Origin: Micrococcales bacterium
Lineage (GTDB): Bacteria > Actinomycetota > Actinomycetes > Actinomycetales > Microbacteriaceae
DNA: 64,000 nt
Reading direction: 5' to 3'
Assembly: GCA_947452985.1 (NCBI GenBank)
Contig: CANGEU010000001.1
Coordinates: forward strand, 1 to 64,000
This document shows positions 44,020-49,956 of the stretch, piece by piece (the stretch's first letter is position 1; each line of letters starts with the position of its first letter). The notes beneath the pieces were generated by a model that had not been told where the DNA came from, searched no databases, and saw only the letters and a program-made list of their open reading frames with translations. Made by a program: the position numbers and the translations under genes.

Positions 44020-45522
44020 GTGAATAAGCATCAATTCAAGCTACCGGGGACTGTGGGCCCTTGGTTTAGTTATTGGATTGAGTATGTCCCTGAAGAAAAT
44101 CTCGGACGCGATCGTAAAAAGTGGTTTCGTGAGTCCATACAAAAAATCATGTTGGGCAATCCTTTCGGTCGCCGAGAACTGTCTTCCATTTCTGTTTCCG
44201 ATTTAACGAATTTCCTTGAAGGTTTCGTCTATTCAGAATTCAGAAGAGACGAAGCGGCAATGCTTCGCGCCTACTTCCATTCGGCCATGCGGGTGGCTCA
44301 CCGTTTCGGGGGAGCGCCTGAGTACACTGCAAAAAATTACTTCACTCCCAGTCGGTTGATTGCTAGGAACCTTGCGTTTTCGGCCTTGGCAATCACAGTG
44401 GTGTTTGGCGTTTATGTGAGTTCCATGTCTTTAGATCGAGTGCTTCGCAAACAAGAGGATTTGATGACTGCTTCGGCAACGGTACTTCGCGAATCTGGTT
44501 TTGGTGTTGCGGTGGCTTTTGCTGAAGACGTTTATTACAACTATCTGAATCCGCCCAAAATTGGCGGAGTTCCTGCGACTGGCCCGAACGCGGATGACCT
44601 AAATGTTGATGGCCAGTTAAATGATTTGCTCGCGGCGCAGGTTGCTAACAATCCAAGTTGGGGTGTGGCCAACAAGCCGAGCCTTTTGCCTGACCGCCTT
44701 AAGTCGCCGGTTGCTCCACTGGAAGGCGAGGGTGAGTGGAAGCCGACCAAGATTTTGGTAAACGGAACTACCGCAATCTGGGTTTCACGCATTCGCCCCG
44801 ACGACGTTCACACATCTTATTGGGCGACGGTTACCTGGTTTGACCCGAGTTTGGTGGCATTCGCTCAGGTGCCAGGAACCAAGGTGCCCGAGGTTTCTGG
44901 TTTGACCGAGCGAACCGGTTTGGTGCCAGAAAAGCTTCGTCCGTTTTATGTTGCAGGTCTGAATGGCGGCTTCTTAATGCGCGATAGTCAGGGAGGTTAT
45001 GCCTTCGACGGCGTTGAGTACCGAAAGCTTTTGAAAGGCAAGGCATCATTGGTTACCTACAACGATGGCTCGTTCGACGTAGTTCAGTGGGGGCGCGACA
45101 AGGTGCGTTCCGAGGTTCAGTCGGTTCGCCAGAATATGGAATTGATTGTTGACGGGGGTGTTAGCCAGGTTACCAGCGAAGATCAGTCGAAGTGGGGCTG
45201 GGTTTGGCAAGGTGTTGGTTCCGGTAAGAATTTGGTTTGGAGAAGCGCCATCGGGATTCGCGCCGACGGCACCATGGTTTATGTGATTGGCGAGGCCATG
45301 AGCGCGAAGTCGCTTGGTGATGTTCTGGTTCGTGCGGGAGCTCAGCGCGCTATTTTGCTTGACATGAATGCCGCCTACGCAAACGGTTTCTTGTATGGGC
45401 CTTATAAAGGTGGAAAGAAGCTTGACTCTGCTAGCACCCGCTCGCCTGAGCGTTTCTGGGCTCCGAGCGAACGCGACTTTATTGCTGTGTATGCAAAGTC
45501 TCCAGCTAGTCGTCCAGATTAG
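44020..45522 (+). CDS. Membrane protein with phosphodiester glycosidase (NAGPA-like) domain
   Basis: 500 residues. An N-terminal cytosolic part of about 115 residues precedes one membrane helix (NLAFSALAITVVFGVYVSSM), and the large remainder is extracellular. Its C-terminal half contains the NAGPA/DUF2233 pattern: RSAIGIRADGTMVYVIGEAM and GAQRAILLDMNAAYANGFLY. In the family this domain cleaves phosphodiester-linked sugars, and it is often tied to exopolysaccharide. The start is GTG 44020 with TAAACT (44005-44010) 9 nt upstream. Its stop interlocks with the HicB-like gene. Confidence 0.8.
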   Translation: MNKHQFKLPGTVGPWFSYWIEYVPEENLGRDRKKWFRESIQKIMLGNPFGRRELSSISVSDLTNFLEGFVYSEFRRDEAAMLRAYFHSAMRVAHRFGGAPEYTAKNYFTPSRLIARNLAFSALAITVVFGVYVSSMSLDRVLRKQEDLMTASATVLRESGFGVAVAFAEDVYYNYLNPPKIGGVPATGPNADDLNVDGQLNDLLAAQVANNPSWGVANKPSLLPDRLKSPVAPLEGEGEWKPTKILVNGTTAIWVSRIRPDDVHTSYWATVTWFDPSLVAFAQVPGTKVPEVSGLTERTGLVPEKLRPFYVAGLNGGFLMRDSQGGYAFDGVEYRKLLKGKASLVTYNDGSFDVVQWGRDKVRSEVQSVRQNMELIVDGGVSQVTSEDQSKWGWVWQGVGSGKNLVWRSAIGIRADGTMVYVIGEAMSAKSLGDVLVRAGAQRAILLDMNAAYANGFLYGPYKGGKKLDSASTRSPERFWAPSERDFIAVYAKSPASRPD

Positions 45523-45893
45523 TCGCAGGGAGCGAGCTGGGCAACGCGCTGAGGAGTTACTCCAAGTAGTACTGCGATGTCGCGCATGGTGAGCCCCTGG
45601 TCGCGCATCTTTTTTACTACTTCACGAATTTCTTGCGACGCTTCTTCTTGAAGCTTGGAAGCCTGCTTCATTTTCTCTTGAGCCGCTTCCATGTCGCAGA
45701 TAATTCCAGGCATGCTGGCAATCACCTTGATGACCACATCGCAGCTGTCGGTAACTCCGTAGTTCTTGGCAGCCTCTTTCACCATTGCTTCAACCTTGTC
45801 GAGGCGCTTGGCGTTTAGGTGGAGGTTCTTGAATTCTGGGATCTCAACGGCCCAGCCGTCGGCTTCGCGTTCGCAGAGTGCTTTGACTTCCAT
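45519..45893 (-). CDS. HicB-like protein with C-terminal helix-turn-helix, no HicA partner
   Basis: 124 residues. The N-terminal half (MEVKALCEREADGWAVEIPEF, LNAKRLDKVEAMVKEA) resembles the HicB antitoxin fold; the C-terminal GLTMRDIAVLLGVTPQRVAQL is a helix-turn-helix; a coiled-coil-like Gln/Glu-rich helix joins them. No HicA toxin gene is adjacent, so this may be an orphan regulator. It has a GGGAG ribosome site and is divergent from the DoxX-like gene across a perfectly symmetric promoter. Confidence 0.72.
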   Translation of the reverse strand: MEVKALCEREADGWAVEIPEFKNLHLNAKRLDKVEAMVKEAAKNYGVTDSCDVVIKVIASMPGIICDMEAAQEKMKQASKLQEEASQEIREVVKKMRDQGLTMRDIAVLLGVTPQRVAQLAPCD

Positions 45894-45999: not shown

Positions 46000-46410
46000 A
46001 TGCACATCGTTCTACAAATCGTTGGTTGGGCTCTAGTGGTGCCACTAGTTCTAGGTCTAGGAAAAGCCGGTCTATGGAAGCTAACCAGCCCAATCGAAAC
46101 CCTAGCCGCAGCAGGTCTAGCTTGGACCAAAGAGATCCCAGCGTTCCTAGTTCGCCTAATTGCCCTTCTTGAAATCCTTGGCGTTGCCGGCATCATCTTG
46201 GCACCAGCCGCCGACCAGTTCCTGGGCTTCAAGTGGGCTGCCATCTGGGGCGTTCTAGCCGCAGCTGGTCTAGCGCTAACCATGGTTGTTGCCGCTCTAA
46301 TGCACATCGTTCGCGGTGAGTTCAAGTACACCTGGAAGGCAAACCTAAGCCTCTTGGGTTACGCTGCCGTACTAACCGGAGTTCTAGCCGCGCTTCCAAG
46401 CGTCGCCTAA
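46000..46410 (+). CDS. DoxX-like small membrane protein
   Basis: 136 residues with four membrane segments. GLGKAGLWKLTSPIETLAAAGL, FLVRLIALLEILGVAGIILA and ALTMVVAALMHIVRGE match the DoxX/DoxX-like family, whose roles include redox or membrane-integrity functions in some bacteria. Leucine codons are extremely skewed to CTA (18 of 26 by my count), unlike its neighbours. Its stop interlocks with the convergent S-component gene. Confidence 0.78.
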   Translation: MHIVLQIVGWALVVPLVLGLGKAGLWKLTSPIETLAAAGLAWTKEIPAFLVRLIALLEILGVAGIILAPAADQFLGFKWAAIWGVLAAAGLALTMVVAALMHIVRGEFKYTWKANLSLLGYAAVLTGVLAALPSVA

Positions 46411-46988
46411 GCGTCTTCGTAGTTAGCCCTGGTGGCTGCCCTTTCGAGGGTGGTCATCAGGGCTTTTCCAATTAACAGGATCAATGCGATTGTGGTGATG
46501 GCTCGTCCGGTATCCCAAATAAGGCCGCCGCTAACCAGTTCGAATTGCAGGAATCTCCATAGGTTTTCTAGGGGACCAACCGCCGACGAGTACGACAGTG
46601 ACGTTCCCGCGCCGACAAAAAGCGGCCAGGTCCAGGAGGTGAGCAGAGCTCCATAAACGTAGGACGAAACAGCCGCATAGATCGAGAGCGTCGCTAACTT
46701 CCCTTTTGCGGACTTCGGTTTCGGCAGAGCTCCAGCACCGAGGCCAATTAAGGCTGTGGCGATCATTTGGAATGGAAGCCACGGACCAACTCCACCGCCC
46801 ATGAGTGAGCTAGCCAGGATAGTCAGTGCGCCCAGTGCTATTCCAAAGCGTGACCCAAAAACATAGGCAGCCAAAATAATCAGTGCGAAAGCCGTTTCAA
46901 TTCCGGCAAAGCCAGCACCCATGAGTCTCACTACAGAATTCACGGCGGCGAGAACCCCGAGTAGGGCTAGGCGCCTGCTATCTAGCAT
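46407..46988 (-). CDS. ECF transporter substrate-binding (S) component, probably cobalamin
   Basis: 193-residue integral membrane protein with about five to six helices (LALLGVLAAVNSVVRLMGAG, ETAFALIILAAYVFG, ALGALTILASSLMGGG). Placement after a fused ECF energizer and under a cobalamin riboswitch indicates it is the B12-specific S component (CbrT/CblS-like). Specificity is inferred from regulation, not from residues. It overlaps the energizer gene by 11 bp. Confidence 0.8.
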   Translation of the reverse strand: MLDSRRLALLGVLAAVNSVVRLMGAGFAGIETAFALIILAAYVFGSRFGIALGALTILASSLMGGGVGPWLPFQMIATALIGLGAGALPKPKSAKGKLATLSIYAAVSSYVYGALLTSWTWPLFVGAGTSLSYSSAVGPLENLWRFLQFELVSGGLIWDTGRAITTIALILLIGKALMTTLERAATRANYEDA

Positions 46989-48528
46989 TCTGGGACACCT
47001 GCTCGATGCTTATAGTTTCAGTGGCGATTGCACCGGCAAATTCACGGTCGTGAGTTGCCACGATTACTTCGACACCGCTCTCGGCAATTTGCCTTATGGT
47101 GTCGGCAAGAATTTGGCGACTGGTTAGGTCGAAGCCAAGGGTTGGCTCATCGAGCAGTAATAGGTCGGTGGTTTTTGCGAGTTGAACGCAAAGCGCGAGC
47201 GTGAGTTTTTGACCCTCCGAGAGGTCTCTTGGATTTTGGTTTGGTTCAAACTCGAGGGCGAACTTTTTAGCGATTGCGGCCGTAGTTCCGTCTGGTTTCT
47301 TCGCATCGAGATCGGCTTGTTTGAATTCTTCCTCAACCGAATCTAAGAACAATAGGTCGCTGGCCGGCTGAGGTATCAACGCTCCCGAACGTTTTGCAAG
47401 TCGCTTGAGATAAGTTGTTTTTCCGCTGCCGTTTGGGCCAAATAAGACGGTCACATTCCCGCTGTTCGGAATCATGTGATCGAGGTTTTGGATTTCTAGC
47501 TCGGATTCAGTTAGCGAACCATCCCGTATTTGTAGAACACGATCTGCCAAACCTGTCAGGAGATTTACACGGTGTTCAGCCACGACGATTGTTGTGCCAC
47601 TTGCCTTCAAATCGGAGAGAGTTGAGATCAGTTCGCTGGTGCCGGAATCGTCGAGAGCCGAAAAGGGCTCGTCGAGAATTAAAACTTTTGAACCGGCGGT
47701 TAGGGCTGCGGCAATCGCCACCCGCTGTTGCCAACCAGCCGATAGCTCCAGCGGGTTAGCTTCAAGGTCGAGGCCAAAAGTTGTGGCCACCTCGGAAACG
47801 CGGTCGGTGATTGCCGCATTACTGCTACCTCGTTGTCTCAGTGAGAATGCGAGCTCGGCAAAAACGGTGTCGGCAACAAAGGTTTGCCTTGGAAGCTGAC
47901 CAACAAAACCCACGCCCGGGTTCTTTGCTTGAATCACTTTGAGAAGAGTGCTCTTTCCGCTGCCCGTGTTACCAGTTACCACGGTGAACGAACCCAGTTC
48001 CAGCTTCAGAGACACATCGCGAAGGACTTCTCGACCCGATGGGTAGGTGAAGTTGAGCTTAGCGAGTTTGATTTCTCCACTTGGAGAAGGAAGTTTCTTA
48101 CCAAAGCCACGAGCCTGCATTGAGTCGGCAAGTTCGATTGCCTGATCGATGGCACCAGACAGCATCGGCGTGAGCACCGAACGAATCAATCGGATACCTC
48201 GGCGATTTGCGCGAAGCTTTGAGTTCTCGCGAATGCGATTCAGGCTATTGGCCAATTCAGGGGTGAGGCTCAGGGCAATACCAAGCGGCACTGAAAGCCC
48301 GCGCCAAGACCTTGGTAAGCGACTCAGTAGTTTTCGAAAATCAACGACGACATTCAGCAGCCCAAAACCAAGCACCCAGACGGCCAGCTTGAAACCATCG
48401 ATGCCGGCCTGCAGGATTCCTTCGAAACTTCGGTCACCGAAGATGAAGCGGAAAATCACGCGCACCAAGACCACAAACAATGCCATCAATAGGTATTGCT
48501 TGAAAATTGTGATCTTGGCGCGCGTCAC
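46978..48528 (-). CDS. ECF transporter energizer: fused T-A-A' protein
   Basis: 516 residues in one chain. Residues 1-145 form a short EcfT part with two or three membrane segments and the coupling helices (LTPELANSLNRIRENSKLRA and ELADSMQARGFG). Then two ABC ATPase domains: the first with Walker A TGNTGSGKST, signature LSAGWQQRVAIAAA and Walker B LILDEPFSALD; the second with FGPNGSGKTT, signature DLSEGQKLTLALC and LLLDEPTLGFD. Together with the S component this would energise vitamin uptake. The T part lacks the usual first membrane segments. It starts with GTG 48528, 6 bp after the lipoprotein gene. Confidence 0.88.
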   Translation of the reverse strand: MTRAKITIFKQYLLMALFVVLVRVIFRFIFGDRSFEGILQAGIDGFKLAVWVLGFGLLNVVVDFRKLLSRLPRSWRGLSVPLGIALSLTPELANSLNRIRENSKLRANRRGIRLIRSVLTPMLSGAIDQAIELADSMQARGFGKKLPSPSGEIKLAKLNFTYPSGREVLRDVSLKLELGSFTVVTGNTGSGKSTLLKVIQAKNPGVGFVGQLPRQTFVADTVFAELAFSLRQRGSSNAAITDRVSEVATTFGLDLEANPLELSAGWQQRVAIAAALTAGSKVLILDEPFSALDDSGTSELISTLSDLKASGTTIVVAEHRVNLLTGLADRVLQIRDGSLTESELEIQNLDHMIPNSGNVTVLFGPNGSGKTTYLKRLAKRSGALIPQPASDLLFLDSVEEEFKQADLDAKKPDGTTAAIAKKFALEFEPNQNPRDLSEGQKLTLALCVQLAKTTDLLLLDEPTLGFDLTSRQILADTIRQIAESGVEVIVATHDREFAGAIATETISIEQVSQNAR

Positions 48529-48534
48529 GTCGTC

Positions 48535-49020
48535 CTAGTTACAAATGAATTCGGCCGGTGCGGGCAGGTGCAGTTCGGTCTTTTCGGTTTGCATGTAAAC
48601 CCAACCCTCATGCGTGCCGCAGGAAGAGTTGTGGTCTGAAGCTCCGGTAGTGGCGTAGTCCCACTTTCCGTTCGAAGCAAGGTAATAACCCCAGTAAGCA
48701 CCCGAACTTTCTGTGTCGTCGCACTTGGTCGCCTTTGGGTTGCCATCGATTTTGCAGGCAAAAGCGGTTGGGTATTTGGCTGTACCTTGAACCTCAAAGC
48801 CGGCGGCCTGAAACAGGTTCCAGCCATTGCCGCTGTATGCCAGAGCGCAGTGGGTGGTGACCGCGCCAAGGTAATCGATTGAAAGAGTCACACCAGGCTG
48901 TTCTTTACTGCAGGCACCCTCGGCCCAGCTGGTAGCAGGCGCAACCGTACTTGAGGTGCACCCCGAAACCGCGAGCACGGCAAGTGCTAGCCCGAAGACT
49001 GTGAGCTTTTTGTAATTCAT
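48535..49020 (-). CDS. DUF4430 (transcobalamin-like) lipoprotein
   Basis: 161 residues. Lipoprotein signal peptide with lipobox AVSGC, so it is tethered to the outer face of the membrane. The mature domain (WNLFQAAGFEVQGTAKYP; YWGYYLASNGKWDYATTGAS; SCGTHEGWVYMQ) fits the DUF4430 fold found in the C-terminal domain of animal transcobalamin and intrinsic factor. Six cysteines besides the lipobox may form disulfides. As the first gene after the cobalamin riboswitch it is likely a surface B12- or corrinoid-binding protein feeding the ECF transporter. Confidence 0.82.
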   Translation of the reverse strand: MNYKKLTVFGLALAVLAVSGCTSSTVAPATSWAEGACSKEQPGVTLSIDYLGAVTTHCALAYSGNGWNLFQAAGFEVQGTAKYPTAFACKIDGNPKATKCDDTESSGAYWGYYLASNGKWDYATTGASDHNSSCGTHEGWVYMQTEKTELHLPAPAEFICN

Positions 49021-49028
49021 TTATTCGC

Positions 49029-49059
49029 CTTCGCGTATTTCGAATGTGCGAATGCGAAG
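49029..49059 (-). promoter_or_regulatory. RBS-sequestering hairpin of the cobalamin riboswitch
   Basis: CTTCGC at 49054-49059 and GCGAAG at 49029-49034 (read on the minus strand) can pair. The second arm contains the GAAGG ribosome binding site of the lipoprotein gene, 8 nt before its ATG. This is a plausible translational expression platform. Confidence 0.6.
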
Positions 49060-49206
49060 ACAGGCGTGAGTGAATACACCTGACTCTGCATCCGTAGTCC
49101 TCGACGGGTGATTGAGAGTACTAGCTCTAAGCAGGCAATCCGACTTCTGGTTGCCCAGTTACGGTTGCGGGTCAGCGCCGGATTCACACCGGCTTTCCCT
49201 GCGTAA
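49060..49206 (-). ncRNA. Cobalamin riboswitch
   Basis: On the minus strand the RNA contains GGGAA, the B12-type stem CCGGTGTGAATCCGG (49178-49192), the conserved CCCGCAACCGTAA, and distally GCAGAGTCAGGTG with a second half (CGCCTGTCTTCG) typical of actinobacterial cobalamin riboswitches. It lies in the leader of the lipoprotein-ECF operon and should repress it when B12 is abundant. Confidence 0.93.
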
Positions 49207-49218
49207 AGTTAAGTGTTT

Positions 49219-49956
49219 TTAGTTTAAGGGCAACCAGTGGGTAGCCCAGGCGTAGCCAACAAAAACCACTGCGTCGATCAGGAAGTGTGCGAATAGCAGA
49301 GGAATCAGCTTTCCGGTTCGCTTGTACCAGTAGCCAAAAATTAACCCCATGACGATGTTGCCAACGAAACCGCCAACACCCTGGTACAGGTGGTAGCTTC
49401 CACGAACCACTGCGCTAAACCAAATGATTTTGGTATCAGTCATGCCGCGCTCGCGGAGTCTTTGAAAGAGGTAACCGACCATGATGCCCTCTTCGAGCAA
49501 ACTGGCCGTGGCAGCCGATAGGAGAAGCAGGGGAGTGGTCCACCAATACTGGTTAACGTCGGTAGCCACAACCTTTGCAGCAAGCCCGAGCGACCTGGCT
49601 GCCAAATAGAGCCCTAGCCCTGGGATTCCAATTCCGGCTGCGAGTCCAAATCCAATCGCCAGTTGGCGTCCTAGTTTGGTTCCACTAATTCCAAACTTCT
49701 CAAGCGCTCCGCGGCCAACCAAGAATAATGTCAAGGCAACCGGTACTAGCTGGAAGGAAAGGCCAACCAACTGGTAACTGAAATCTAGCCATTGGCGCGG
49801 GTCAACGCTCTCGTTGATTGTGGTAGACGATCCGCCGAGACCTGCTGGAGTGGTGAGCATCGACACAAAAGCCAAAACCGAGTAGATGGCCGACTTGCCA
49901 AGGCTTAGGCCGAAGACCAGCCAAAGTTCTAAATCGATACGACGCTTTAGCTCCAT
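49219..49956 (-). CDS. CPBP family intramembrane metalloprotease
   Basis: 245-residue membrane protein with about six to seven helices. The CPBP (Abi/Rce1-type) motifs are LEEGIMVGYLFQRL, a His in VRGSYHLYQGVGG, and the third motif FAHFLIDAVVFVG. Roles in the family range from prenyl-protein-type cleavage to bacteriocin immunity; not specified here. It overlaps the upstream LysE-family gene by 10 bp. Confidence 0.83.
   Translation of the reverse strand: MELKRRIDLELWLVFGLSLGKSAIYSVLAFVSMLTTPAGLGGSSTTINESVDPRQWLDFSYQLVGLSFQLVPVALTLFLVGRGALEKFGISGTKLGRQLAIGFGLAAGIGIPGLGLYLAARSLGLAAKVVATDVNQYWWTTPLLLLSAATASLLEEGIMVGYLFQRLRERGMTDTKIIWFSAVVRGSYHLYQGVGGFVGNIVMGLIFGYWYKRTGKLIPLLFAHFLIDAVVFVGYAWATHWLPLN
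49221..49226 (-). promoter_or_regulatory. -10 element (TAAACT) of the B12 operon
   Basis: TAAACT on the minus strand, inside the last codons and stop of the upstream CPBP gene (TTA AAC TAA), positions transcription to begin just before the riboswitch. Confidence 0.45.

Follow-up and report, generated by a model that had tools for sequence, protein, structure and literature searches.

A predicted B12-scavenging operon with a transcobalamin-fold lipoprotein and a dedicated ECF importer in a Microbacteriaceae genome

The 64,000-nucleotide stretch of actinobacterial DNA analysed here (the window) contains a three-gene operon which, with a probability of about 0.7, encodes a B12-scavenging system where a corrinoid-capturing lipoprotein of the transcobalamin fold feeds the S component of an ECF importer. 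The operon would serve an auxotrophic host. At low cellular cobalamin the riboswitch would permit expression, and the membrane-anchored lipoprotein would capture a corrinoid on the outside of the membrane, acting by itself in the window and with a toroid partner in many relatives. It would then deliver the ligand to the S component, energised by the T-A-A′ chain, and the imported cobalamin would be used by MetH and presumably, once converted by the PduO adenosyltransferase, by an AdoCbl enzyme. The evidence computed in the present study comprises the riboswitch, the operon layout, the domain assignments, a fold match, the exclusive linkage of lipoprotein and importer, and the lack of both BtuC and a single biosynthesis marker, CbiC. 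The features are listed below.

49125..49215, minus strand: AdoCbl-II cobalamin riboswitch aptamer, RF01689 (cmscan)
49083..49119, minus strand: probable expression-platform hairpin (alignment with 16 related leaders, RNAalifold)
49028..49059, minus strand: possible arms sequestering the ribosome site (complementarity read from the sequence)
48535..49020, minus strand: lipoprotein, 161 aa, with the predicted fold of a transcobalamin beta domain, DUF4430-type (lipobox, AF2 model, VIA-align, linkage)
46978..48528, minus strand: fused ECF T-A-A′ energizer, 516 aa (ABC_tran twice, ECF ATPase NCBIfam model, motifs)
46407..46988, minus strand: ECF S component, 193 aa, predicted cobalamin specificity and CbrT-like role (PF12822, tree, genome association)

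On the minus strand, the riboswitch is followed by the genes of the lipoprotein, the T-A-A′ chain and the S component, all with intact reading frames. Six nucleotides separate the lipoprotein stop from the T-A-A′ start, and the T-A-A′ and S genes overlap by 11 nt. The operon is flanked upstream by a CPBP-type protease gene (49219-49956) and downstream by a DoxX-like gene (46000-46410), and these flanks are common to the window and same-genus relatives. Further along (45519-45893) lies a gene for a 124-aa protein with a helix-turn-helix-like C-terminal part, which looks HicB-like; similar genes occur beyond the operon in two other loci (L016, L017). The source genome, which is 92% complete, amounts to 1.42 Mb in 39 contigs. 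Its nearest named relatives are Rhodoluna and other Microbacteriaceae MAGs, from which its genus is deduced and which suggest that the host is probably a small freshwater actinobacterium.

The cmscan search matched the full RF01689 model (positions 1-81 of 81) at 41.1 bits, above the gathering score of 36.5 (E = 2.1e-6), which, together with the tight gene spacing, confirms the original prediction of a cobalamin riboswitch heading three closely packed genes; its end at 49215 lies nine bases past the one first proposed. In relatives the operon is headed by a cobalamin riboswitch too. The aligned leaders of 16 close relatives have in common, besides the aptamer, a hairpin that lies downstream of it, GACTCC...CCGTCGAGGTCTACGG...GGAGTC, which is present in the RNAalifold consensus. 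The window leader contains a diverged form of it, ACTCT...AGAGT around CCCGTCGAGGACTACGG, and, judging from the sequence, this hairpin is the probable expression platform. Just 5′ of the lipoprotein start, the complementary arms CTTCGC and GCGAAGG may possibly mask the ribosome site; they are not favoured in the free-energy fold of the leader. The riboswitch may act as a translational off-switch. Since the genome encodes PduO, a reading of the AdoCbl-II switch as serving methylcobalamin alone was abandoned.

The second gene was originally read as a one-chain T-A-A′ energizer and the third as its S component, and both assignments held. Pfam detected two ABC_tran stretches in the T-A-A′ chain, and its best NCBIfam match was an ECF ATPase model. 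Two each of the Walker A, signature, Walker B and H-loop motifs are present and intact, the T coupling motifs RANRRG and QARG are found within residues 1-145, and T proteins orthologous to that of the window were found in relatives. The S component matched PF12822 above the cut-off (E = 3.8e-9). With two intact ATPases, T coupling motifs and an S component encoded together with its own module, the importer has the features of a Group I ECF transporter. The T part of the window is short, with about two membrane helices, and the S component is without the N-terminal segment of its relatives. The S tree grouped the window with same-genus S components (support 100/99). The A-A′ tree placed it beside a MetH-linked type of the importer on a very long, flagged branch, which indicates that the operon could be under relaxed selection. 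We did not follow a reading in which the importer derives from the MetH-linked type, since the S tree, the riboswitch and the flanking genes all connect it with its own genus.

The substrate was approached by a survey of 150 genomes of the family, with MetH scored by its activation domain. The S component was found in 29 of them and MetH in 26, all within these 29, and no S-negative genome encodes MetH (Fisher p = 4e-26, shared ancestry uncorrected). A 30th S match (E = 4e-4, 54 residues) was treated as spurious and left out. MetH adjoins the operon in most S-positive genomes that encode it. The three S-positive genomes without MetH (G064, G075 and G138) all have both riboswitch and PduO; in G064 and G138 (loci L021 and L022) the S gene is followed by one for a class II ribonucleotide reductase, and none was found at the G075 locus. 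Among 16 genomes tested, PduO was present in all six bearing the riboswitch and in none of the ten of the MetH type without it. The window's genome encodes a full-length MetH and PduO; it contains no BtuC-type permease, its sole FecCD match being an ABC-3 metal permease. Such a genomic association with B12 enzymes and the riboswitch is that of a CbrT-type S component, and on these genomic grounds cobalamin is almost certainly the substrate. The proposal of a dedicated, cobalamin-regulated ECF cobalamin importer is strongly supported: across genomes the S component goes together with MetH or a class II ribonucleotide reductase, and BtuC is missing here. CbrT of L. delbrueckii also transports cobinamide (PMC5997447), and the importer might likewise carry another corrinoid or a precursor instead of, or besides, complete cobalamin. 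However, CbiC is absent from all 29 S-positive genomes, completing a precursor would require salvage enzymes, and MetH requires the complete cofactor, which makes this alternative improbable.

The importer resembles CbrTUV (CbrUVT), to which a genome survey gave a role in cobalamin uptake (PMC6593275), and ECF-CbrT in being an ECF system assigned to cobalamin; moreover, the L. delbrueckii cluster has nrdJ and pduO as neighbours, as do some relatives here (PMC5997447, PMC6593275). Unlike ECF-CbrT, the window encodes a dedicated one-chain T-A-A′ module. No sequence relationship to L. delbrueckii CbrT could be recognised for its S component: a search of the S profile against the PDB, including CbrT (6fnp), returned only folate-type S components (E = 0.037 and 0.3). 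A further difference from both systems is the transcobalamin-fold lipoprotein, which is always present here and is not mentioned in PMC5997447 or PMC6593275.

The lipoprotein carries the lipobox LAVSGC and shares no more than 24-33% identity with its orthologues. It matched no Pfam model at the cut-off. The DUF4430 model PF14478 gave no lipoprotein match at E ≤ 1 and none in the whole genome at E ≤ 10, Cobalamin_bind gave no sequence match above its cut-off, and the lipoprotein profile found nothing at E ≤ 1 among PDB sequences. Assignment to these families by profile was consequently dropped. By sequence the protein comes closest to the SCO2322 family (NF040672), but it scores only 23.6 bits against a curated cut-off of 85, too few for membership. 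An AlphaFold2 model built from 15 orthologues (mean pLDDT 82) was then compared with known structures. The top 19 Foldseek matches in the PDB were all chains of R. gnavus DUF4430, transcobalamin, intrinsic factor or haptocorrin (probability 0.97-1.00, with modest E-values of 0.004-0.08). In VIA-align, the model superimposed on 3u7z with Z 10.4 (2.8 Å, 94 residues) and on the human transcobalamin beta domain with Z 9.8 in the apo form (5no0) and 9.6 in the cyanocobalamin-bound form (5np4). The DUF4430/transcobalamin/intrinsic factor group reached Z 9.2-10.4 over 93-104 residues, the best of all PDB entries. The lower-ranked matches include ubiquitin-like and Ras-binding domains, as they would if the similarity reflected a generic beta-grasp arrangement that says nothing of B12. 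Against this, the group stands at least 3 Z units above all other folds, the next unrelated one having Z 6.0, and the gene sits in cobalamin operons; a merely generic resemblance is very improbable. The predicted structure is thus that of a transcobalamin beta domain, or DUF4430 fold, and the name DUF4430 given to the lipoprotein originally is right by fold and not by profile.

The lipoprotein is linked to the importer at every complete locus. Among 121 loci with a T component in Actinomycetota, it adjoins T in all 116 with upstream sequence, a count that includes many close relatives; the remaining five are contig ends. Failure to co-occur in related genomes had been set beforehand as grounds for rejecting the proposal, and this adjacency leaves it standing. 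All 29 S-positive family genomes contain the lipoprotein, which lies on a different contig from S in one of them (G099). Upstream regions totalling 470 kb contain 80 occurrences of the riboswitch pattern, vs 17 in 3.06 Mb elsewhere. Two arrangements prevail: 57 loci have the riboswitch and a gene for an alpha toroid protein, and 32 are MetH-linked with neither. The arrangement of the window, a riboswitch without the toroid, is rare (10 loci). By the pattern, 17 loci have no marker; Rfam adds two riboswitches among nine of these, and several others end early. In one 16 kb locus from a 7.0 Mb genome (L063), Rfam identifies four cobalamin riboswitches, and two toroids and two lipoprotein homologues are also encoded there. 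The record names of the MAG contigs L118 and L101 (Bifidobacterium breve and Auritidibacter) look doubtful.

According to its entry title, 5np4 is the isolated human transcobalamin beta domain crystallised with cyanocobalamin, which indicates that a beta-only protein can hold the ligand. From the predicted fold it can be suggested that the lipoprotein binds a corrinoid and hands it to the S component. The protein might instead act in cobalamin uptake without binding, as a lid, docking or assembly factor for S or for the toroid, the latter being the real binder. A separate toroid protein precedes the lipoprotein in many relatives, and CbrT alone achieves nanomolar affinity for cobalamin and needs no partner protein for its transport (PMC5997447). 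Yet about 32 loci and the window are without a toroid and keep the beta protein without exception, and the human crystal structure again speaks for binding. A non-binding role appears unlikely, if a serious alternative, and corrinoid capture by the lipoprotein is preferred.

The toroid, which the original prediction had missed, adds a second transcobalamin-like half in many relatives. Between the riboswitch and the lipoprotein, same-genus relatives encode a secreted protein of about 330 aa, which is close to the SCO2321 family and belongs to the alpha6/alpha6 toroids. At five loci (L111, L112, L122, L141 and L145) such a toroid and the beta domain form one chain in this order, which is that of transcobalamin, with a C-terminal membrane anchor. 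The nine best Foldseek matches of the L111 model (pLDDT 78.5) were transcobalamin and intrinsic factor (E about 1e-8, about 480 columns). The global TM-score to them was low, so the domains are not predicted in a closed arrangement. The toroid alone matched terpene cyclases (Z 24) and was not accepted as evidence of transcobalamin, being inseparable from these enzymes by fold or sequence; only the combination of toroid and beta domain points to transcobalamin. Relatives such as L111 are predicted to possess both domains, and the window encodes the beta domain only. Other architectures were also observed near cobalamin ECF operons: toroid and beta domain with cell-wall-binding (CWB2) repeats (L069:5608-7884, L070:5129-7576) or with S-layer (SLH) domains (L076:2-1837). 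In L150:2-2053 and L168:92-2299 the beta domain precedes the toroid, the reverse of the transcobalamin order.

No toroid was found in the window's genome (G000) by the same search that detected it in G010 and G092; as the genome is 92% complete, its absence is likely and not certain. The system of the window thus seems to be a reduced version. The missing toroid, the long A-A′ branch and the shortened T and S would also suit a decaying relic with a functionless lipoprotein. Such decay is at odds with the intact reading frames and ATPase motifs, the riboswitch score above the cut-off, and the presence of MetH and PduO in a genome where no BtuC-type B12 importer was found, and it is quite improbable. 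A working, reduced scavenging system remains the preferred reading.

It may be, as a tentative extension, that Actinomycetota possess a surface transcobalamin, either fused or as a pair of toroid and beta proteins, which clamps the corrinoid, feeds a dedicated ECF importer and shares ancestry with the animal carriers, the window having a minimal, beta-only form. The common ancestry is suggested by predicted folds. The likeness to animal transcobalamin, intrinsic factor and haptocorrin lies in the predicted beta-domain fold, to which relatives add the toroid, some fused in the same order. The animal carriers, in contrast, are soluble and have an endocytic receptor, whereas the bacterial protein is surface-anchored, has only the beta half in the window and shows no significant sequence match to them. 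The best sequence families, SCO2322 for the beta domain and SCO2321 for the toroid, have names that give no function. Bacteroides BtuG and BtuH (DUF4465) are likewise surface lipoproteins capturing B12 for an importer, but their domains are unrelated by name and they work with the outer-membrane BtuB. One btuH homologue lies near an ECF-like cobamide transporter in Eubacterium siraeum (PMC8941943). BtuFCD also combines an extracytoplasmic protein with ATP-driven B12 import, and differs in its BtuC-type permease.

To our knowledge, ECF transporters normally use no separate extracytoplasmic binding protein, and a transcobalamin-fold protein always linked to the importer would, if the proposed role is correct, change this view for cobalamin. 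It would also give a function to two widespread families, SCO2321 and SCO2322, provide a bacterial counterpart of the animal B12 carriers and explain B12 scavenging by many auxotrophic actinobacteria, including freshwater ones with small genomes. No description of DUF4430, SCO2322 or transcobalamin-like ECF lipoproteins in such a role was found in the literature covered, which leaves out most subscription journals, and no publication naming SCO2322 was found; the earlier remark that a B12 role of DUF4430 lipoproteins is little characterised therefore stands.

Work on ECF-CbrT showed release of the S component from the module and its return, but did not find this cycle to be essential (PMC12075633). 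Natural T-A-A′-S fusions could serve to test this point. Genes encoding T, A, A′ and S as a single chain of about 970-1130 aa were observed in Microbacterium and relatives, several of them in near-complete genomes:

L062:4605-7625, four-part ECF fusion
L064:4614-7811, four-part ECF fusion
L065:5034-8060, four-part ECF fusion
L067:4339-7743, four-part ECF fusion
L136:5718-8642, four-part ECF fusion
L170:5411-8398, four-part ECF fusion
L175:5003-8269, four-part ECF fusion
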